DNA of 64,000 bases, taken from positions 62,001-126,000 of the forward strand of contig NZ_JAMHFY010000009.1 of assembly GCF_023897015.1 (NCBI RefSeq), given 5' to 3'. The notes beneath the pieces are model-generated. The model saw only the letters and a list, made by a program, of their open reading frames with translations. It ran no database searches and was not told where the DNA came from. Shown piece after piece: positions 9,249 through 64,000 of the stretch (position 1 is the first letter of the stretch; each line of letters opens with the position of its first letter). The translations under genes were made by a program, and so were the position numbers. This DNA is from Desulfosporosinus nitroreducens. GTDB lineage: Bacteria > Bacillota > Desulfitobacteriia > Desulfitobacteriales > Desulfitobacteriaceae.

Positions 9249-9776
9249 TTACGGTTGTTTCATAAGTTCTAAATCATATATATTGTCGAGTTGCTTGTAA
9301 GTTTCACAAATTACCCTATCGAATTCTCCCTTGTTGATGTAAGCCTCATTGATTCCTCTAAGTCCTTGGCTAATACCTTCTCTAAAGACAATTCGTGACT
9401 GATTCTTACCCTCTACCAAAAAGACTTTACTTTCATCAAAAATGTCGACACGCGGAACTATATCGAAACGAGCCCACATTTCCTCAAGTCCGACCTCTTC
9501 GTACTCGGATTCTTTGTATCCGTATAGAACATCATTTAATCTGTTAAATAACTCGAACTTACTCAAGTGAAACAGTTCCTCATGTATTCGTTTTCCATTA
9601 TCACGAATCATATTGTGTAGATGGAACATTACATCCCTCAATGATGTGCCTAGTTCATAATCACCTATTTGCTTGCCTTTAATAAAATAACAAATTCCTC
9701 CAAACATCCATACGCCACCATAATCCGAAGCTAATTCGTATTCAATTGCAAATTCCGATTTGTTACCTATAATCAT
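9249..9776 (-). CDS. Imm42-like immunity protein
   Basis: A 175-residue soluble protein. Its N-terminal pattern (IIGNKSEFAIEYEL, then YGGVWMFGGICYFI and IGDYELGTSL) resembles the Imm42 family of immunity proteins, which protect cells from a cognate polymorphic (contact-dependent or secreted) toxin. I base this on recall of the family pattern and could not search. No toxin gene with a matching C-terminal domain is adjacent. It stands between a gene remnant and a dispersed repeat, so it looks like an orphan immunity gene, a common state in Firmicute accessory DNA. It is transcribed alone on the minus strand. Confidence 0.6.
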   Translation of the reverse strand: MIIGNKSEFAIEYELASDYGGVWMFGGICYFIKGKQIGDYELGTSLRDVMFHLHNMIRDNGKRIHEELFHLSKFELFNRLNDVLYGYKESEYEEVGLEEMWARFDIVPRVDIFDESKVFLVEGKNQSRIVFREGISQGLRGINEAYINKGEFDRVICETYKQLDNIYDLELMKQP

Positions 9777-10045: not shown

Positions 10046-10203
10046 CTAATCCTTACTCAGTGATTCCAGTAACTTCTGAAGATAGTCGATTTGTTCCGGT
10101 GAAAGCTTTTTCACGGTACCCAGTAGTCGTTGGATCTCCGGTCCCAAGATCTGTTCTTCTTCTGTGAAGAATTCCGCAAGGCTAATTCCGAACGCTGCAC
10201 TGG
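10046..10203 (-). pseudogene. 3' fragment of an XRE-type regulator gene
   Basis: The last 52 or so codons of an XRE-family regulator remain (ISLAEFFTEEE to KLSPEQIDYLQKLLESLSKD, stop at 10046-10048). They match the C-terminus of the gene at 58000-58311. The helix-turn-helix part is gone and the fragment joins directly to the 3' end of the sigma-fusion gene near 10203. This is consistent with a deletion that removed the DNA lying between these two genes in copy 2. The fusion gene's last five codons (CSVRN) come from this remnant in another frame. Confidence 0.75.
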
Positions 10204-11918
10204 GTCAATTTACCGGGGATTTTGAGCAATTCATCCTTTTGGAGCTGTCCGCCGCAGGAATAATAGTAACCATTGTCCTGCCAATCGAGCATATATTTAA
10301 CACCCGCCAATTCGATCTTGATGAGTCCCCCGGTTGCTTTCCTGCCATCAAACTCAAGTTCTACGGGTGACCTGCTAGCATTTGAAGGCAGATTGGTATG
10401 CAGCACAGGCCCTTGGGTGACAATCAACAACGGGTTCTGCTCACCGAGGACGGAATACATACTGAGCAGGGCACCTTTACCCTCTTTTACTTCAACCCAT
10501 TGGTGTTTGATCTTATAATTCTGACCAGGCAAAATATATGGAGCTTGATTCAAGCGATCTGCTGCCTCAGTCAGCGTTATATCCTGAGGAAGATTGAGGA
10601 CTTGACTGTTTTCCTCCTCAATGGTTACCCCTTCGGGAAGATCCAGTTCAAACAAGGAATCAGGCAGTCCCTGATTGAGGCGAAGCTCCCTCACTTCCCG
10701 ACGGTTTACCAGCTCTCCTTTGACATTATAATATTCCGTTCGCATTGGCATCCAGGTTTCTTTGTCCATCCAGTGATGAGTATTCATTTCCCCCAGCCCG
10801 GGAACTTGTTCACTGAATTGTACATGAAGAACCGGCCGACCTTGCAGGTATTCCGTACCTAAGATCCGGCTGGATTTATTCTCGGCCATCGCCTTGAGGC
10901 TGTCCGGGAAATTAAAGTTGGCACGTTCTCTATATTCCTGGCTTAAGATAAGTTTTCTGACTTGGCGCTTATCGGCAAGCCAACTCAGCATCATTCCGTC
11001 TTTTATAATTACCGTTATGTGCCCGGTTGCTGCACTGTCCCCGTCTGTCCGATAGCAATCAGGCTTCTTGAACCAGATATGGGAGGTCATGGTGGTCGGT
11101 TTTCCCTGCTCAAAGAAAGTAGCATCCACGATTTCCTCGTAATCCTCTGTTTTCTCTATCACCGCCTGCACCTTATCCTTAATCTCAGCTACGGAAAGGG
11201 TTATTTTTCCGGTCAGTGAATGCAAGAATGTCAGAAAGTCCTTTTGCTTTTTCATCTCCTGTTGCCATGCAGGGTTTTGCGACAGTTCTTGTTCAAAGGC
11301 ATTTCTGGCTGCTGCCTCCATGGTTCCTTCCAAATAGTCACAAATTCGGTTCTTTATATCTGATGACTCTAGCGTCATGTCTACTCGCTCCTTTGGCTTT
11401 TTTCTATACTGTTTCAGTGTCTCCTGCAGACGGGCCCGGGCCCGGAATAACCGGGACTTGACCGTTCCCAGGGGAAGATTGTATTCTTCCGCCGCTTCCT
11501 GTAAATTCAATCCTCTTACATCAATATCAAGCAGGATTTGCTGTTGTTCCAGAGGAAGCCTTCTAATCTCCTGCCCCAATTCCAACTTCAGCGTGACAGC
11601 ATCCTCGACAGACAGTTCCCCGGTGTTCAGCAGCTCCGCTGTTATCCCCGGCATTACCCTGCTGCTGAAACGCAGCAACAGGTATACTTCGTTGGTTAAT
11701 ATCCGCCGCCACCAGCCGGTAAAAGCGCCTTCATCTTTCAAGCCTGACAGGTTATTAAAAACCTTAAGCATAGTGTTTTGTACGGCGTCCTGAGCCAGAT
11801 CCTTATCTCTCAGCAGGCAGAAAGCCTGTTTGGAAGCCTGGGGATAGATTTCCCGGATTAATTCTTCCCAAGCGTCAAGGTCACCCTGCCGAGCCCTCCC
11901 AATCAGATCTTTTTTCAC
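10182..11918 (-). CDS. Sigma-70 family protein fused to LolA-like and DUF4367-like domains (copy 1)
   Basis: A 578-residue protein. Residues 1-165 form an ECF-type sigma factor: region 2 (DKDLAQDAVQNTMLKVF, and FTGWWRRI in the DNA-melting part) and region 4 (LPLEQQQILLDI, GLNLQEAAEEYNLPLGTVKSRLFRARARL). Residues about 180-235 form a short helical region like an anti-sigma N-terminus. Residues about 235-420 resemble LolA/RseB-like lipid-binding folds (HIWFKKPDCYR, LFELDLPEGVTI). The C-terminal 130 resemble DUF4367 (YYYSCGG). Family practice puts LolA-like/DUF4367 sensors outside the membrane on a separate anti-sigma factor; here no membrane segment or signal peptide is visible, so topology is a puzzle. 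The copy at 60763-62505 is about 95 percent identical. The last residues differ because the 3' end was recombined. Confidence 0.75.
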   Translation of the reverse strand: MKKDLIGRARQGDLDAWEELIREIYPQASKQAFCLLRDKDLAQDAVQNTMLKVFNNLSGLKDEGAFTGWWRRILTNEVYLLLRFSSRVMPGITAELLNTGELSVEDAVTLKLELGQEIRRLPLEQQQILLDIDVRGLNLQEAAEEYNLPLGTVKSRLFRARARLQETLKQYRKKPKERVDMTLESSDIKNRICDYLEGTMEAAARNAFEQELSQNPAWQQEMKKQKDFLTFLHSLTGKITLSVAEIKDKVQAVIEKTEDYEEIVDATFFEQGKPTTMTSHIWFKKPDCYRTDGDSAATGHITVIIKDGMMLSWLADKRQVRKLILSQEYRERANFNFPDSLKAMAENKSSRILGTEYLQGRPVLHVQFSEQVPGLGEMNTHHWMDKETWMPMRTEYYNVKGELVNRREVRELRLNQGLPDSLFELDLPEGVTIEEENSQVLNLPQDITLTEAADRLNQAPYILPGQNYKIKHQWVEVKEGKGALLSMYSVLGEQNPLLIVTQGPVLHTNLPSNASRSPVELEFDGRKATGGLIKIELAGVKYMLDWQDNGYYYSCGGQLQKDELLKIPGKLTQCSVRN

Positions 11919-12084
11919 GCTTTGATCCTCACCTCAACTATTTCAATTCGAAATGCATTTCAGTACTTAGGATTCATAATGGGGTTAAAAAGTTCCACTG
12001 ATTTTAAATATTATCATGAGCCTAGTCTAGGCATTTTTATTATCTTCTATTTTGTATATAACAAAGGACCCATATGTGGGCTGG

Positions 12085-12113
12085 TTGCATATTTTACAAT
12101 TCATGGGTATAAT
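12085..12113 (+). promoter_or_regulatory. Promoter of antisense RNA (copy 1)
   Basis: TTGCAT (12085-12090) and TATAAT (12108-12113) are separated by 17 bases on the plus strand and point toward the 3' end of the holin-like toxin gene. The element is conserved in copy 2 at 62674-62702 and is degenerate in the third copy near 43640. Confidence 0.75.
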
Positions 12114-12118
12114 ATAAG

Positions 12119-12236
12119 AAAAGGACTGACGTGTTGCAAGCACGCCAGCCCGGCAGATTGTCTAACCAAACGGTTAGCCCGAATTAGAGATTATAAGAAA
12201 TAACCGCCATCCGGCCAGGGGCGGTTATTTCTTCTT
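12119..12236 (+). ncRNA. Candidate antisense RNA to holin-like toxin (copy 1)
   Basis: The predicted transcript is about 118 nt. It starts after the 17-base-spaced promoter, contains two hairpins (CTGACGTG with CACGCCAG; CTAACC with GGTTAG) and ends at a terminator stem, AAATAACCGCC (12198-12208) with GGCGGTTATTT (12220-12230), followed by CTTCTT. Its 3' end overlaps the last codons and 3' tail of the oppositely oriented toxin gene. This matches the convergent layout of type I systems such as txpA/RatA. Expression is not shown; the call rests on promoter, structure, terminator and conservation in a second copy. Confidence 0.65.
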
Positions 12237-12302
12237 CATGATCATAACAATGAGCGTCGCAAATGCAATCATGAGATACATCGCCTCAACCATTGAGATC
12301 AT
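12225..12302 (-). CDS. Holin-like toxin peptide (Hol-Tox type), copy 1
   Basis: A 25-residue peptide: MISMVEAMYLM at the start, one hydrophobic helix (AMYLMIAFATLIVMIM) and a terminal KKK. This is the pattern of the putative holin-like toxin family and of type I toxins such as TxpA/BsrG, which damage the membrane. A strong ribosome binding site (GGGGGTGG) lies just before the ATG but sits in a stem with CCACACCCTTTC upstream (12306-12330), so translation is probably held back by mRNA structure. The stop codon lies inside the shared terminator stem that also ends the convergent antisense RNA. The peptide is conserved in copy 2 with two conservative changes. Confidence 0.75.
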   Translation of the reverse strand: MISMVEAMYLMIAFATLIVMIMKKK

Positions 12303-12305
12303 CCT

Positions 12306-12330
12306 ACCACCCCCTTTCTGAAAGGGTGTG
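12306..12330 (-). promoter_or_regulatory. Hairpin sequestering the toxin ribosome binding site (copy 1)
   Basis: On the minus strand CCACACCCTTTC pairs with AAAGGGGGTGG around a tiny loop, which buries the toxin Shine-Dalgarno. In copy 2 one A is lost from the loop side, yet the stem is kept. Confidence 0.65.
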
Positions 12331-12361
12331 GCCAACCGTCCCTCGACAACCTGTTACAAGT

Positions 12362-12370
12362 ATTATAGCA
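12362..12370 (-). promoter_or_regulatory. Extended -10 promoter of the toxin mRNA (copy 1)
   Basis: On the minus strand TGCTATAAT forms an extended -10 element (TGnTATAAT). No good -35 lies 17 bases upstream. The transcript would start about 50 nt before the toxin ATG. Confidence 0.55.
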
Positions 12371-12420
12371 TAATCTTCCAGACAATAAGATGTAACTTTT
12401 CCCTGATTATTCACAGAGTT

Positions 12421-12449
12421 CAGGCCGCCTCACAAAACGAGGCGGCCTG
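12421..12449. terminator. GC-rich hairpin between the DUF4829 gene and the toxin
   Basis: A perfect 11-base inverted repeat, CAGGCCGCCTC / GAGGCGGCCTG, with a 7-base loop. It is conserved in copy 2 (63009-63037) and nearly so in the third copy (48089-48117). It probably separates the DUF4829-like transcript from the toxin mRNA. The flanking T-run is weak. Confidence 0.6.
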
Positions 12450-12503
12450 ATTTGTTCCGCTGCCAAAGATTAAACTTAAAGGATTCTGTTCCTCACAGCG
12501 ATG

Positions 12504-13187
12504 CTAAGGTCCTGTTCCTTCACTATCAATCCTCCAACCGCTTTTATCCGATTCCTTTTTTAGAATAATAAATCTGGTTTGCTTTCCGCTGTTTGAAGTA
12601 ATCTCATTTTTAAATTTGAACTCTATTGTTGCAGCATACTCCACAGTCCCCTTTGGATTACCCAAGCCGCTTACTTCTCGCAAACTAATAAATTTTGCTG
12701 ATTTTACATTCTGTTCGCCATCCATATAGACATTATTATAACCAGCGTTCATAAGCAGATTATTATCCATGTTTGCAGCCAAATAATTACATAGATTTTG
12801 TCGAGTCAAACAGGCAAACTGCATTTTTTGATCATGGCTATTCATAGCTTTATAATATTGTTTTACGATGTCCTCTGGTTCCATTTTAGATAATTCTATT
12901 TCTAGTTCATTATTATAATTGATATAGTCACTAATCCAATGATCCCATTCTTTATTGGTGAAATCTGTTAAGCTTTTTCTATCAAGTGAGCAGGCAAAGC
13001 AGTCATGTCTCCCCGCATCAATATAAGCTCCAACGATTTTGCTATTGTATTTCAAAACGATTCCTCGTGAATTCATTCTTGGATTCATATACTCAGGCAA
13101 GGGCTCCCTAAGCCTATAAATATCAACCTCTACTTCCTTCCCCAGGTATTCACTATAGTCCAGGCCGATATTTTTAGAAAGTTCATT
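12504..13187 (-). pseudogene. DUF4829-like protein gene, 5'-truncated (copy 1)
   Basis: The minus strand encodes the C-terminal 225 or so residues of a protein like that at 63093-64000, with the shared segments GIVLKYNSKIVGAYIDAGRHDCFACSLDRKSL (split here by position, about 13000-13070) and EDIVKQYYKAMNSHDQKMQFACLTRQNL. The last domain resembles DUF4829, an NTF2-like fold of unknown function found in Firmicute exported proteins. Homology to copy 2 stops at 13187, where unrelated sequence begins. The native N-terminus, including any signal peptide, is missing, so the product would be incomplete. An ATG at 13100 keeps a 198-codon frame that might still be translated. Confidence 0.75.
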
Positions 13188-13237
13188 ATTGATTTCTCAA
13201 CTTCACAGTATAGACATACTACCGGGGTTATGGATTT

Positions 13238-16743: not shown

Positions 16744-17508
16744 TTAATTTATATATTTTACCCCTTCAGAGATTTTCATCGCCACATCCTGGTCTGTCTG
16801 AGCCCGAATCATAAATATACGGCTATTCATTTCCCATATGATTGTCACCACTGAGTTCTTTTCCACCAGTGTTCCCTCATGACCGTTTATATCGACGGTT
16901 TTAGTGACTAAAGCATTCTCCGTATCCAGCGCGGGCCTGTTGCCCTCAATTAACTCTGTATAAGTAATCAATCCTCCCTGCTCGTTCTTAAATTGGATTT
17001 CATTGTGAATTTTACCTTTAGAAATATTGGTGGCTTTATAGCCCTCCGGTATATAGGTCGGCACATAGGCTTGGCTCCAATTGACAACCGCATTGCTTCC
17101 CTTCAAGCCATTCTCACTCTCCTTTAGTTCAAAAGACGTATATTGCTGCCGGATATCCTTTAATAGATTGAGTGCTTTTACTCTCAAGGCCTGCACGCTT
17201 GCGACGGTGGTAAACATGATGACAAGCATGATCAGTATTGCTACTGCCGCTTTGTTTAAAATCCCCAACATTCGTCGCCTTGCGGTATAAGTTTTTGCCT
17301 TGTTTAACCGGGTGTCCAGTTGCAGGCTGAATTTTTGAAGTGCCTCTTTTGAAGGAGCAAATTCGGGATCATTTTTGAGTTTTTCCTTTTCCTCCAGGTA
17401 AAGCTTTCCTTCCCTTTCGGCAGCATCGTGCATAACCAGCTTAAACAAACTGTCATCATATTCTTCAAGAAGCTTTTTTCGGATCTGATCCGGACGGTTA
17501 TTTGGCAT
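16744..17508 (-). CDS. DUF4367-domain anti-sigma-like membrane protein
   Basis: A 254-residue protein. The cytoplasmic N-terminus (residues 1-80) is charged and helical, one membrane segment lies at about 85-107 (AAVAILIMLVIMFTTVASVQAL), and an external DUF4367-like domain follows (about 145-253, with YVPTYIPEGYKATNI and IWEMNSRIFMIRAQTD). The gene overlaps the ECF sigma gene by 11 bases, the classic layout of a sigma factor with its membrane anti-sigma. It should hold the sigma factor at the membrane until a cell-envelope signal is sensed. This normal arrangement contrasts with the one-protein fusion in the repeated module. Confidence 0.75.
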   Translation of the reverse strand: MPNNRPDQIRKKLLEEYDDSLFKLVMHDAAEREGKLYLEEKEKLKNDPEFAPSKEALQKFSLQLDTRLNKAKTYTARRRMLGILNKAAVAILIMLVIMFTTVASVQALRVKALNLLKDIRQQYTSFELKESENGLKGSNAVVNWSQAYVPTYIPEGYKATNISKGKIHNEIQFKNEQGGLITYTELIEGNRPALDTENALVTKTVDINGHEGTLVEKNSVVTIIWEMNSRIFMIRAQTDQDVAMKISEGVKYIN

Positions 17509-18061
17509 GATTATTCATCTCCTTGCCCATCATTTGTTTAGCGTTTCTGCGGGCTCTTGTTAAATACTGCCGGACGCTGTCGGGAGCGATATTCAAAATT
17601 GGCGCGATTTCACTATCATCCATATCCAAAATATATTTAAAATACAACAGTTCTTTTTGCTTTTCAGGAAGTTTCAATATGGCATTTCCCATTTCTTCGA
17701 TTTCTTCCTGATGAATAATCCTGTCCACTATCGTATCTTCACCATCTGGAATAGATTTTGCCATGTCACTTTCTTCTCCATAATACAAATGTTTTGTTTC
17801 TACGTCTCTGTGTTTAATAAAGTTGATAGCCACACTCCTAGAACTATAGACAATATAAGCGGCCGTTTTGCAACTATTTAAAGTACGAATTAGAGAGATT
17901 TTGTCAACTAATTTTAAGAAAGTATCATTAATCAGGTCCTCAAGGTTGTCCAAATCATGGGTAATATTATAAACAGTCTTCCGTACAAGACCATAATAAT
18001 CATGATATAAGTTCAACATAAAGGCCTTATCGCTATCGACGGCTAGTGCCGCGATTATCAT
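17498..18061 (-). CDS. ECF-type RNA polymerase sigma factor
   Basis: A sigma-70 family protein of about 187 residues. Region 2 is at the N-terminus (HDYYGLVRKTVYN, LEDLINDTFLKLVDKI) and region 4 at the C-terminus (LPEKQKELLYFKYILDMDDSEIAPIL, DSVRQYLTRARRNAKQ). I chose the ATG at 18061 because AGGAAGTGA lies about 6 bases upstream. A longer frame starts at 18157 but adds 32 residues foreign to the family. It redirects RNA polymerase to a small regulon, probably including this operon, and is paired with the overlapping DUF4367 membrane protein. The promoter motif it recognises was not identified. Confidence 0.85.
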   Translation of the reverse strand: MIIAALAVDSDKAFMLNLYHDYYGLVRKTVYNITHDLDNLEDLINDTFLKLVDKISLIRTLNSCKTAAYIVYSSRSVAINFIKHRDVETKHLYYGEESDMAKSIPDGEDTIVDRIIHQEEIEEMGNAILKLPEKQKELLYFKYILDMDDSEIAPILNIAPDSVRQYLTRARRNAKQMMGKEMNNHAK

Positions 18062-18404
18062 CAGATCACTTCCTATTATTACTTTTGTAAAGTTTTTCCC
18101 AAGAAAAATATCATAAAGAGTTGTCTTTATAGTCCCTACCGAAAGCTTGTTGATCAAGATATTTATTTCAGGCCTTTAGAGGTTAGTAGGTGATCAGTCT
18201 CTTTAATATAATCTGAAACAGATCCCAAGGCCCCATTGAAGAATACCTCTTCTTTTTTTATTTCAGAATCTCCTGCAATCGGGATGCGAGTTGTCAGGAT
18301 TTCCCCAAGATAATAAGAAGATCCGGTATGGAATAAATTTTATTTAGGTGAGAATTTTCTCCCTCCGGACCTTGGTTCTAGGGGTAAGCAGCTTGATCTG
18401 GGCA
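18062..18404. other. Intergenic stretch without recognisable content
   Basis: About 340 bases upstream of the sigma gene and before the Rpn-type fragment. I see no gene or strong RNA structure. The right end (from about 18340) may be eroded sequence of the nuclease gene. Confidence 0.4.
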
Positions 18405-60762: not shown

Positions 60763-62505
60763 TTACGCTATATGTTTTAACTCTGCCTGTGTCAATTTTC
60801 CGGGGATTTTGAGCAACTCATCCTTTTCAAGCTGCCCGCCGCAGGAATAAGAGTAACCATTGTCCTGCCAATCGAGCATGTATTTGACACCCGCCAATTC
60901 GATCTTGGTGAGTCCTCCGGTTGCTTTCCTGCCATCAAATTCAATTTCTACGGGTGACCTGCTAGCATTCGGAGGCAGATTAGTATGCGGCACCGGCCCT
61001 TGGGTGACAATCAACAACGGGTTCTGCTCACCGAGGACGGAATACATACTGAGCAGAGCACCTTTACCCTCTTTTACTTCAATCCATTGGTGTTTGATCT
61101 TATAATTCTGACCAGGCAAAATATATGGTGCTTGATGGAAACGCTCTGCTGCCTCAGTCAGCGTTATATCCTGAGGAAGATTGAGGACTTGAGTGTTTTC
61201 CTCCTCAATGGTTACCCCTTCAGGAAGATCCAGTTCAAACAGGGAATCAGGCAGTCCCTGATTGAGGCGAAGCTCCCTCACTTCCCGGCGGTTTACCAGC
61301 TCCCCTTTGACATTATAATATTCCGTTCGTATTGGCATCCAGGTTTCTTTATCCATCCAGTGATGAGTATTCATTTCCCCCAGCCCGGGAACTTGTTCAC
61401 TGAATTGTACATGAAGAACCGGTCGACCTTGCAGGTATTCCGTACCTAAGATCCGGCTGGATTTATTCTCGGCCATCGCCTTGAGGCTGTCCGGGAAATT
61501 AAAGTTGCCACGTTCTCTGTATTCCTGGCTTAAGATAAGTTTTCTGACTTGGCGCTTATCGGCAAGCCAACTCAGCATAATTCCGTCTTTCATAATTACC
61601 GTTATGGGCCCGGTTGCCGCATTGTCCCCGTCTGTCCGATAGCAATCAGGCTTCTTGAACCAGATATGGGAGGTCATGGTGGTCGGCTTCCCTTGCTCAA
61701 AGAAAGTAGCATCCACGATTTCCTCGTAATCCTCTGTTTTCTCTATCACTGCCTGCACCTTATCTTTAATCTCGGTTACGGAAAGGGTTATTTTTCCGGT
61801 CAGTGAATGCAAGAATGTCAAAAAGTCCTTCTGCTTTTTCATCTCCTGTTGCCATGCAGGGTTTTGCGACAGTTCTTGTTCAAAGGAATTTCTGGCCGCT
61901 GCCTCCATGGTTCCTTCCAAATAGTCACAAATTCGGTCCTTTATATCGGATGGCTCTATCGTCATGTCTACTCGCTCCTTTGGCTTTTTTCTATACTGTT
62001 TCAGTGTCTCCTGCAGACGGGCCCGGGCCCGGAATAACCGCGACTTGACCGTTCCCAGCGGAAGATTGTATTCTTCTGCAGCTTCCTGTAAGTTTAATCC
62101 TCTTAGATCAATATCAAGCAGGATTTGCTGTTGTTCTAGAGGAAGCCTTTTAATTGCCTGCCCCAATTCCAACTTCAGCGTGACAGCATCCTCGACAGGC
62201 AGTTCCCCGGTGTTCAGCAGTTCCGCTGTCATCCCCGGCATTACCCTGCTGCTAAAGCGCAGCAACAGGTATACTTCGTTGGTTAATATCCGCCGCCACC
62301 AGCCGTTAAAAGCGCCTTCATCTTTCAAGCCTGACAGGTTATTAAAAACCTTAAGCATAGTGTTTTGTACGGCGTCCTGAGCCAGATCTTTATCTCTCAG
62401 CAAGCAGAAAGCCTGTTTGGAAGCCTGGGGATAGATTTCCCGGATTAATACTTCCCAAGCTTCAAGGTCACCCTGTCGAGCCCTTCCAATCAGATCTTTT
62501 TTCAC
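60763..62505 (-). CDS. Sigma-70 family protein fused to LolA-like and DUF4367-like domains (copy 2)
   Basis: A 580-residue protein, about 95 percent identical to the copy at 10182-11918 and colinear with it: sigma regions 2 and 4 (residues 1-165), helical linker, LolA-like fold (about 235-420) and DUF4367-like end. Here the C-terminus is native (KIPGKLTQAELKHIA) and a terminator follows. No membrane span or signal peptide is visible between the sigma and sensor parts. Differences between the copies are scattered and mostly conservative, and both frames are open, which argues that both are or were under selection. Downstream of the start region on the minus strand lies the antisense/toxin pair. 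Confidence 0.78.
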   Translation of the reverse strand: MKKDLIGRARQGDLEAWEVLIREIYPQASKQAFCLLRDKDLAQDAVQNTMLKVFNNLSGLKDEGAFNGWWRRILTNEVYLLLRFSSRVMPGMTAELLNTGELPVEDAVTLKLELGQAIKRLPLEQQQILLDIDLRGLNLQEAAEEYNLPLGTVKSRLFRARARLQETLKQYRKKPKERVDMTIEPSDIKDRICDYLEGTMEAAARNSFEQELSQNPAWQQEMKKQKDFLTFLHSLTGKITLSVTEIKDKVQAVIEKTEDYEEIVDATFFEQGKPTTMTSHIWFKKPDCYRTDGDNAATGPITVIMKDGIMLSWLADKRQVRKLILSQEYRERGNFNFPDSLKAMAENKSSRILGTEYLQGRPVLHVQFSEQVPGLGEMNTHHWMDKETWMPIRTEYYNVKGELVNRREVRELRLNQGLPDSLFELDLPEGVTIEEENTQVLNLPQDITLTEAAERFHQAPYILPGQNYKIKHQWIEVKEGKGALLSMYSVLGEQNPLLIVTQGPVPHTNLPPNASRSPVEIEFDGRKATGGLTKIELAGVKYMLDWQDNGYSYSCGGQLEKDELLKIPGKLTQAELKHIA

Positions 62506-62673
62506 GCTTTAATCCTCACCTCAACTATTTCAATTCGAAATGCATTTCACTACTTAGGATTCATAATAGGGTTCAAAAGTTCCACTGATTTTAAATATTA
62601 TCATGAGCCTAGTCTAGGCATTTTTATTTATCTTCTATATTTGTATATAACAAAGGACCCATATGTGGGCTGG

Positions 62674-62702
62674 TTGCATATTTTACAATTCATGGGTATA
62701 AT
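62674..62702 (+). promoter_or_regulatory. Promoter of antisense RNA (copy 2)
   Basis: TTGCAT (62674-62679) and TATAAT (62697-62702) with a 17-base spacer, identical to copy 1. Confidence 0.75.
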
Positions 62703-62707
62703 ATAAG

Positions 62708-62826
62708 AAAAGGACTGACATGTTGCAAGCACGCCAGCCCGGCAGATTGTCTAACCGTAGGGTTAGCCCGAATTAGAGGTTATAAGAAATAACCGCAATC
62801 CTTGGCGGGGGCGGTTATTTCTTCTT
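62708..62826 (+). ncRNA. Candidate antisense RNA to holin-like toxin (copy 2)
   Basis: This has the same layout as 12119-12236. The second hairpin here has the loop GTAG (CTAACC-GTAG-GGTTAG) where copy 1 has AAAC with the same stem, so the stem is kept while the loop changes. The terminator stem AAATAACCGC/GCGGTTATTT overlaps the toxin stop codon. Confidence 0.65.
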
Positions 62827-62892
62827 TATGATCAAAACAACGAGTGTTGCAAATGCAATCATGAGATACATCGCCTCAACCATTGAGATCAT
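62815..62892 (-). CDS. Holin-like toxin peptide (Hol-Tox type), copy 2
   Basis: A 25-residue peptide, MISMVEAMYLM followed by IAFATLVVLIIKKK. Two or three conservative changes from copy 1 (I/V and M/L/I) keep the hydrophobic helix and lysine tail. The ribosome binding site GGGGGTGG lies in a hairpin with CCACACCCTTC upstream. A longer frame begins upstream at 63003, but it runs through the promoter and hairpin and is not credible. The location and antisense partner match type I toxin systems. Confidence 0.75.
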   Translation of the reverse strand: MISMVEAMYLMIAFATLVVLIIKKK

Positions 62893-63008
62893 CCTACCAC
62901 CCCCTTTCTGAAGGGTGTGGCTAACCGTCCCTCGACAACCTGTTACAGATATTATAGCATAATCTTCCAGACAATAAGATGTAACTTTTCCCTGATTATT
63001 CACAGAGT

Positions 63009-63037
63009 TCAGGCCGCCTCACAAAACGAGGCGGCCT
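63009..63037. terminator. GC-rich hairpin between the DUF4829 gene and the toxin (copy 2)
   Basis: CAGGCCGCCTC / GAGGCGGCCTG with a 7-base loop, identical to 12421-12449. Confidence 0.6.
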
Positions 63038-63092
63038 GATTTGTTCCGCTGCCAAAGATTAAACTTAAAGGATTCTGTTCCTCACAGCGATG

Positions 63093-64000
63093 CTAAGGTC
63101 CTGTTCCTTCACTATCAATCCTCCAACCGCTTTTATCCGATTCCTTTTTCAGAATAATAAATCTGGTTTGCTTTCCGCTGTTTGAAGTAATCTCTTTTTT
63201 AAATTTGAAATCTATTGTTGCTGCATACTCCACAGCCCCCTTTGGATTACCCAAGCCGCTTACTTCTCGCAAACTAATAAATTTTGCTGATTTTACATTC
63301 TGTTCTTCATCCGTATAGACATTATTATAACCAGCGTTCATTAGCAGATTATTATCCATGTTTGTAGCCAAATAATTACATAGATTCTGTCGAGTCAAAC
63401 AGGCAAACTGCATTTTTTGATCATGGCTATTCATAGCTTTATAATATTGTTTTATGATGTCCTCTGGTTTCATTTTAGATAATTCTATTTCTAGTTCATT
63501 ATTATAATTGATATAGTCACTAATCCAATGATCCCATTCTTTATTGGTAATATCATTTAAGCTTTTTCTATCAAGTGAGCAGGCAAAGCAGTCGTGTCTC
63601 CCCGCATCAATATATGCTCCAACGATTTTATTATTGTATTTCAAAACGATTCCTCGTGAATTCATTCTTGGATTCATATACTCAGGCAAGGGCTCCCTAA
63701 GCCTGTAAATATCGACCTCTACTTCCTTCCCTAGGTATTCACTATAGTCCAGGCCGATATTTTTAGAAAGTTCATTATTGTAAGCCCAGTATATCTTGAC
63801 AGGATACTCTCCCGCATCGTGTTTCAGGTTAGACGGGAGTGTCACATTCATTGTGTTGACTCGATAGTCAATCGTCCAATTATATTTTTCAAATAATTCT
63901 TCAACCTGATTATTTATGTTTGGATCAAACTGTCTATATTCAGTAAAGTCCTTAATGTACCTGAAAAAACTAAAACCAGGGTCATACTTGTGATCATCAA
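63093..64000 (-). CDS. DUF4829-like protein (copy 2), cut by the window end
   Basis: The minus-strand frame is open from the stop at 63093 to the end of the window, so the 5' end is missing here. The visible 302 residues begin DDHKYDPGFSFFRYIKDFTEY and include HDAGEYPVKIYWAYNNELSK, GIVLKYNNKIVGAYIDAGRH with FACSLDRKSL, and the C-terminal DUF4829/NTF2-like part (EDIIKQYYKAMNSHDQKMQ, ending WRIDSEGTGP). An exported or membrane-anchored location is common for the family, but its N-terminus cannot be seen. It is the first gene of the module copy, upstream of the toxin and the sigma fusion on the same strand. Confidence 0.75.
   Translation of the reverse strand, partial: DDHKYDPGFSFFRYIKDFTEYRQFDPNINNQVEELFEKYNWTIDYRVNTMNVTLPSNLKHDAGEYPVKIYWAYNNELSKNIGLDYSEYLGKEVEVDIYRLREPLPEYMNPRMNSRGIVLKYNNKIVGAYIDAGRHDCFACSLDRKSLNDITNKEWDHWISDYINYNNELEIELSKMKPEDIIKQYYKAMNSHDQKMQFACLTRQNLCNYLATNMDNNLLMNAGYNNVYTDEEQNVKSAKFISLREVSGLGNPKGAVEYAATIDFKFKKEITSNSGKQTRFIILKKESDKSGWRIDSEGTGP

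Follow-up and report, generated by a model that had tools for sequence, protein, structure and literature searches.

We find that an ECF sigma factor, an anti-sigma-like domain and an RseB-like sensor, which elsewhere are the products of separate genes, are united in one soluble chain in Desulfosporosinus nitroreducens. The gene lies in the window, by which we mean the whole stretch of 64,000 nucleotides that was analysed, in a host genome of 5.46 Mb. The protein is most likely a cytoplasmic one-gene sigma/anti-sigma switch that senses a hydrophobic molecule, with autoinhibition, a ligand and a second, shorter product as the predicted elements of the switch. The features of the gene and of its paralogue are the following.

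11970 to 11996, minus strand: ECF-type promoter block GGAACTTTT-N14-ATCC, predicted to serve autoregulation, with fixed spacing in all clades
11927 to 11934, minus strand: Shine-Dalgarno sequence AGGTGAGG of the full-length product
10182 to 11918, minus strand: fusion gene, an open reading frame of 578 aa for sigma2-sigma4, the anti-sigma-like domain and the RseB-like N and C domains
11664 to 11861, minus strand: sigma-70 region 2, residues 20-85 (Pfam, 27.8 bits, cut-off 24.0)
11421 to 11582, minus strand: sigma-70 region 4, residues 113-166 (Pfam r4_2, 39.6 bits, cut-off 25.7)
11388 to 11394, minus strand: internal Shine-Dalgarno sequence AAAGGAG at the sigma/anti-sigma junction, 9 nt before an ATG
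10182 to 11378, minus strand: predicted short product of 398 aa, residues 181-578 from M181, comprising the anti-sigma-like domain and the RseB-like module
11211 to 11363, minus strand: zinc-less class I anti-sigma-like domain, residues 186-236, with predicted helices at 186-197, 202-214 and 216-236
11181 to 11237, minus strand: strongly conserved connector FLTxLHxLTGKxxLxxxEI, residues 228-246
10629 to 11192, minus strand: LolA-like half-barrel resembling the RseB N-domain, residues 243-430 (predicted structure, fold match)
10203 to 10601, minus strand: RseB C-domain/DUF4367-like domain, residues 440-572 (Pfam and fold match)
62557 to 62583, minus strand: promoter block of the paralogue, GGAACTTTT-N14-ATCC
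60763 to 62505, minus strand: paralogue of 580 aa, 94% identical, with the same domains, an internal start at 61965 and an open frame

The fusion gene begins with a GTG behind its ribosome-binding site, and its frame is open throughout. The sigma part has regions 2 and 4 and none of the other core sigma regions, as in an ECF sigma factor; it scores 57.4 bits with TIGR02937 against a cut-off of 42.9, and its predicted model matches the structures of SigW and AlgU. A preliminary description of this DNA had claimed that sensor and sigma factor share one chain, and this is borne out by the open 578-aa frame and by the paralogue and 18 further homologues, all of which are fused. The separate sigma/anti-sigma pair of the same window, with which the fusion had been compared there, is real and lies at 16744-18157.

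For the sensor part, the sequence profiles give a mixture of labels. LolA_like scores 22.1 bits in the 578-aa protein, below its cut-off of 30, and DUF4367 (PF14285, cut-off 22.1) scores 20.9 bits when the protein is searched and 23.1 bits in the genome search. At E<=1, LolA_like is matched in all 20 aligned homologues and DUF4367 in 9 of the 20. MucB_RseB (PF03888) reaches 15.0 bits against a cut-off of 22.3 and is matched at E<=1 in 19 of the 20 homologues, with a best E of 9.2e-4, while a sequence search of the PDB retrieved no RseB chains at either E<=1 or E<=0.01.

The predicted structures point to a single fold. The best Foldseek match is RseB (2v42_A, E 1.6e-10 over 336 columns), followed by MucB and LolA. 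VIA-align superimposes the full-length model on RseB 2p4b_A with a Z of 12.6 and an rmsd of 7.4 over 254 residues in the span 229-575, and the extension modelled alone (pLDDT 83.9, pTM 0.76) gives a Z of 12.6-12.7 over 265 residues. The model thus has the two-domain fold of MucB and RseB, with its two domains placed otherwise than in RseB, since the rmsd is about 7 A; single-domain LolA-type chains fit closer (2yzy, Z 13.5, 3.8 A). From these models we conclude that the two sensor pieces are, by predicted fold, one RseB/MucB-like two-domain module. A separate RseB-like protein in another Bacillota genome (locus L098) scores 47.0 bits with MucB_RseB, above the cut-off of 22.3, and is also matched by DUF4367, LolA_like and MucB_RseB_C below their cut-offs; because Pfam gives the same mix on this protein, the labels LolA and DUF4367 fit one RseB-like module. 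The preliminary description had named the sensor by these two labels and had proposed a structure check of it. The check, now run, finds the whole RseB/MucB-like fold with LolA among the matches, and by fold the two pieces together make up one module. The domain list of the preliminary description was right about sigma and sensor and missed the anti-sigma-like domain at residues ~186-236. A likeness of the extension profile to polyubiquitin (E 1e-9 to 0.06) was rejected, as no single stretch passes; we take the segment LTGK-ITL to resemble the first hairpin of ubiquitin, and we dismiss the likeness as chance because the model has helix, loop, helix at this place.

Residues ~186-236 resemble class I anti-sigma domains. 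When this region was aligned by hhalign with 17 zf-HC2 anti-sigma domains of relatives, the rows that were not empty in a reference set of 19, P was 5.8e-4, as opposed to 0.49-0.89 for four control regions of the fusion protein, and zf-HC2 itself matches weakly in 8 of the 20 homologues, with a best E of 0.099. The Hx3Cx2C zinc motif is absent in all 20 fusion sequences; it occurs in about 56% of ASDIs and is not required (PMC7406223). The full-length model, with a pTM of 0.57, does not resolve how the anti-sigma-like domain is placed on the sigma part.

The connector that follows, measured over residues 227-245, is the most constrained stretch of the protein in the two largest clades, with dN/dS of 0.032 in clade 1 and 0.019 in clade 2; single pairs, which have few sites, give 0.16 for the two window copies, 0.73 for L061-L062 and 0 for L063-L064. 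By hmmsearch and hhalign, its LTGK aligns with the LTGC of the lipoprotein signal of L082, an exported lipoprotein-like protein that, beyond the order, is the closest relative of the extension, and K or R replaces the lipobox cysteine position in 20/20 fusions. This alignment hints at a descent of the sensor from an exported lipoprotein, the signal sequence having turned into the connector. The connector may equally be read as helix 4 of the anti-sigma domain, the helix that contacts sigma2 in class I anti-sigma factors. Known sigma/anti-sigma pairs have a dual interface, and helix 4 is part of it (PMC7406223).

The preliminary description had also claimed that a membrane span is absent, and a hydropathy scan agrees with it: no transmembrane helix was found in any of the 20 homologues, linker included, with the highest 19-residue Kyte-Doolittle mean at 0.65-1.53. 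The highest such mean in the separate anti-sigma factor of the window (16744-17508) is 2.61. The module therefore departs from the exported RseB type, as it sits behind a sigma factor and has no hydrophobic span by hydropathy, and by the same measure the protein lacks the transmembrane helix and extracytoplasmic part of the IutY type (ECF243). At L026, which is the same locus as L062, a hydrophobic stretch lies upstream in the same open frame; we take this stretch to be untranslated because it is located ahead of the promoter block.

We then turn to the junction between the sigma part and the anti-sigma-like domain, where an in-frame start lies 4-10 nt behind a Shine-Dalgarno core in 20/20 homologues from five clades. 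In clades 1, 2 and CEB3 the start is an ATG behind AAGGAG or AGGGAG, in L061/L062 it is a GTG behind GGGGAG, and in L063/L064 it is a GTG behind AGGGAGGAG or AAGGAGGAG. The 20 genes contain 842 in-frame starts, of which 35 have a Shine-Dalgarno core, and 22 of these 35 are at the junction. Conserved at the level of sequence, the internal Shine-Dalgarno and start predict a second, shorter product, and we credit the nested start because the residues, the Shine-Dalgarno sequence and the start codon vary between clades while the arrangement persists.

It is conceivable, though on balance we doubt it, that the internal signals are a relic of the former start of an anti-sigma gene, or an effect of K-E codons, and that the short product does not exist. 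Three clades have the K-E codons AAG GAG (AGG GAG in L054) in common, and when synonymous codons were permuted with the protein kept, in 10 of the 20 genes, these three clades (1, 2 and CEB3) gave p values of 0.11-0.53, with 1 to 7 of 14-17 other stretches equal to the junction. Moreover, the Shine-Dalgarno sequence of the anti-sigma factor in the separate pair of the window likewise lies within the 3′ end of its sigma gene, so the internal start of the fused gene may be that of an anti-sigma gene which was once separate. However, L061/L062 and L063/L064 reach the same arrangement with other residues, other Shine-Dalgarno sequences and GTG starts; shuffling in these two clades gave p values of 0.006-0.06, with 0 or 1 of 11-18 stretches equal to the junction, and Fisher's method with one chosen gene per clade gave 0.004. 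Elsewhere in the alignment, the separate stretch that comes next has a Shine-Dalgarno core and start in just 2 of the 5 clades. As a separate observation, an in-frame A_AAA_AAG (a -1 slippery heptamer) stands at codon 173, just before the internal ribosome-binding site, in 7/8 clade-1 genes; it was dropped as a feature, as it occurs in 0/12 genes outside clade 1.

An ECF-type promoter ahead of an ECF gene usually signals autoregulation, and the block GGAAC[CT]TTT-N14-ATC[CT], with fixed spacing, is found upstream in 24 of the 25 loci examined. In clade 1 it is present in 14/14 sequences, which correspond to 13 distinct loci (L009 and L050 are the same, and L051 is a broken copy); in the other clades it lies <=2.2 kb upstream in 11/12, the exception being L055, for which 149 nt of upstream sequence were available. 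The conservation of this predicted promoter before the fusion gene implies that the gene is autoregulated through the GGAAC block.

At L053, L054 and L059 the fusion gene is directly preceded by genes for an ABC ATPase and an ABC-2-like permease, with the promoter block in front of the ABC genes, and at L063 and L064 a related ABC pair lies directly downstream. The upstream and downstream pairs are 42-46% identical over their aligned parts. With the ABC-2 Pfam model (cut-off 27.2), the L063 permease scores 33.6 and the L054 permease 20.6, below the cut-off; the best match of the ATPases is DrrA (daunorubicin resistance), below cut-off, and a lantibiotic-protection model comes third. No ABC pair is present beside 15 of the 20 fusion genes within the flanks examined, some of which are short, and a search of the host genome, run without a positive control, gave no match to the permease. 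The promoter pattern has five matches in the host genome, two of them being the two fusion copies. The other three lie inside a gene that we take to be aroQ-like (L116), before a gene pair that is presumably ACT-domain/UPF0210 (L115), and before an operon that we take to be ChrB-like/FetAB-like (L114, G000:C22:35107). The last of these was dropped as a regulon member, as the pattern is missing before a 95% identical orthologue in G006. Across 29 genomes of the genus the pattern has 64 matches versus 34 for a reversed control pattern, and 23 of the 64, counted from the listing, are at fusion genes, their operons or fragments; since so many are fusion-linked and the control gives 34, we regard the rest as about noise. 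This promoter-pattern search found no convincing regulon member besides the fusion gene itself.

We lean, if only slightly, towards reading the protein as a soluble, single-gene version of sigmaE-RseA-RseB that is cytoplasmic, self-inhibited and ligand-released, with the short product acting in trans. In this reading three cytoplasmic parts follow one another on the chain: the ECF sigma factor, the zinc-less anti-sigma-like domain of class I, and the RseB/MucB-like sensor with its two domains. At rest, the anti-sigma-like domain would keep sigma2 and sigma4 off RNA polymerase, and inhibition would occur in cis and also in trans, by the short product made from the conserved internal ribosome-binding site. 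The LolA-like cavity would bind an intracellular hydrophobic or amphipathic ligand, and the change induced by the ligand would be relayed through the connector FLTxLHxLTGK, so that the sigma factor is freed. From GGAAC[CT]TTT-N14-ATC[CT], the freed sigma factor would then drive transcription of the fusion gene; in one lineage it would also drive that of the ABC-2-like exporter, which is apparently behind the same promoter, and in two lineages the exporter would remove the amphiphile. We propose amphiphile binding and sigma release by analogy with the lipid response of MucB/MucA: the hydrophobic cavity of the MucB N-domain binds lipid A, lipids trigger the release of MucA, and fatty acids also, to some degree, make MucB release MucA (PMC7400510). 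More tentatively, and with less than even confidence, we suggest that the nested gene might yield a locked sigma factor together with a free inhibitor-sensor, an RseB-type envelope sensor having moved into the cytoplasm, with its LTGC turned into the LTGK connector, where it would report intracellular amphiphiles.

Two further readings seem improbable to us. In one, the protein would be a precursor whose flexible junction (residues 174-186) is cleaved to give a separate sigma factor and an anti-sigma/RseB protein made 1:1. The junction has a pLDDT under 50 and differs in length and sequence between clades, and IutY is known to be activated by proteolysis, as has been proposed for further fused ECFs (PMC8999054); however, no shared cleavage motif was seen by eye in the junction sequences, there is no membrane anchor for intramembrane proteolysis, and the internal start would already supply free anti-sigma. 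We give an equally small chance to the other, in which the extension is needed for activity or targeting instead of being inhibitory, with a lipid or a protein possibly bound by the RseB-like part and serving as a positive cofactor. CorE and ECF42 do depend on their extensions for activity (PMC8999054). Against this reading stand the likeness of the sigma-adjacent domain to class I anti-sigma domains and the occurrence elsewhere of the same parts as separate genes, which profiles label as anti-sigma and RseB-like. A cytoplasmic sensor coupled to a self-inhibited sigma factor remains the best reading of the fusion. That a frameshift or sequencing error merged a two-gene operon, an event by which the preliminary description could have been overturned, is excluded for practical purposes, since the fused frame is open in the two copies and in 18 further homologues, and all domains are under purifying selection in the two large clades.

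The two copies in the window belong to a larger repeat: 10191-13191 and 60779-63780, 50 kb apart, are 95.7% identical and form a 3.0-kb duplication that contains the fusion gene and a gene for a DUF4829/DUF4830 protein. The last residues of the two fusion copies differ because the duplication stops just short of the stop codon. Directly behind the stop of the first copy, a remnant of the C-terminus of a helix-turn-helix regulator can be recognized by eye (10046-10181, minus strand). The region also encodes an Imm42 immunity protein (9249-9776, minus strand; PF15593, 105.8 bits), a homologue of which also lies behind the fusion gene at L045 and L047, and a 25-aa hydrophobic peptide (12225-12302, minus strand) that scores 15.1 bits with Hol_Tox (holin-like toxin), below the cut-off of 23.3, and that by its sequence is possibly a type I toxin.

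Beyond the window, near-full-length fusions occur in 20 of 100 related genomes, host included, as counted among the matches listed, one of them being 14 residues short. The fusions of Desulfosporosinus fall into clades at about 92, 44 and 40% identity, those of Peptococcaceae CEB3 are at 46-47%, and those of two MAGs from another family of the order are at 35-37%. Conservation in other genera, which the preliminary description had proposed to check, is thus found in Peptococcaceae CEB3 and the two MAGs, and judged by this distribution of sequences across Desulfosporosinus, a near genus and another family, the fusion is old. Broken copies are found at L051 and L065-L067, with L065 belonging to Acididesulfobacillus. 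The alignment of 20 comprises the two window copies and 18 further homologues selected as intact; a pattern-based scan of genome contigs, which picks up close relatives, gave 34 loci from which these 18 were taken. The loci left out are L051 and L052 (broken frame, contig edge), L065-L067 (broken frames), L068 and L069 (fragments) and L070-L078 (matching the sigma part only, or sigma plus a little), while L049 was kept though it ends 14 residues early; two smaller alignments have 13 and 12 sequences. In a tree of 40 sequences the 20 fused sigma domains form one clade with the sigma-only fragment L171 (support 0.999). This fragment (G021:C73) is a truncated relative of 143 aa with the sigma part only and the same promoter pattern in front. 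Values of dN/dS are 0.145 in clade 1 (28 pairs) and 0.139 in clade 2 (21 pairs), and every domain lies at 0.02-0.19 in these two clades.

We also looked for other fusions of sigma and RseB. No open reading frame with both sigma and sensor profiles is present in L035 and L167-L202, of which L173-L202 are the loci of the best 30 PF03888 matches in a 398-genome sample of the phylum. At these best 30 RseB-like loci, 19 have a separate sigma-like open reading frame in the stretch examined, two of these being weak, and 0/30 have sigma and sensor profiles in the same frame. A profile of the extension has matches in 29 of 398 genomes of a sample of the same size, and the near-full-length ones are the fusions in G000, G015 and G047. 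In this sample its best match beyond the order is L172 (E 2e-34), a stand-alone lipoprotein-like RseB-type protein of 370 aa in G083.

The fusion has its ECF sigma factor, its anti-sigma-like domain of class I and the LolA-like RseB fold of two domains in common with RpoE-RseA-RseB of E. coli and AlgU-MucA-MucB of P. aeruginosa; unlike them, it is one polypeptide without a transmembrane helix or sensor export and without a membrane site for proteolytic release. A comparable arrangement of separate genes is at L098, where genes for sigma, a zf-HC2 anti-sigma factor, the RseB-like protein and HtrA stand in a row (L091 is similar by ORF layout only). The parts and their order are the same as in the fusion, but they are separate genes at L098, and there the anti-sigma factor has a hydrophobic span, as does the RseB-like protein at its N-terminus. 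The fusion shares a soluble sensor or regulatory domain behind sigma4 with the ECF sigma factors that have soluble extensions, which are described as SnoaL, TPR, WD40-like or Cys-rich (PMC8999054); unlike these, its extension is anti-sigma-like and RseB-like and has an internal start. Sigma and anti-sigma are also in one chain in IutY (ECF243) and in ECF48/52/53, which, in contrast to the fusion, are described with transmembrane portions (PMC8999054). B. subtilis SsdC (YdcC), which is MucB/RseB-like, likewise brings an RseB-like module to Bacillota, but it has a transmembrane segment, an extracellular domain and a role in spore shape, whereas the module of the fusion is linked to a sigma factor (PMC7769602). 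The same review tabulates further ECF groups with extensions, some of them from Bacillota (PMC8999054), so the fusion family may already be inside a named ECF group, undescribed. In the open-access literature searched, we found no description of a sigma-RseB fusion or of a nested anti-sigma start.

RseB-type parts that work in the cytoplasm without a membrane step would show direct gating of a sigma factor by a ligand. If the internal start is used, the sigma gene would carry its own anti-sigma factor nested in frame, which would give a built-in ratio of locked sigma factor to free inhibitor. As solubility is predicted for the protein, its ligand, its inhibition and its dual start are open to testing, and the fusion bears on the reuse of RseB in monoderm Bacillota, a question raised with the study of SsdC (PMC7769602).
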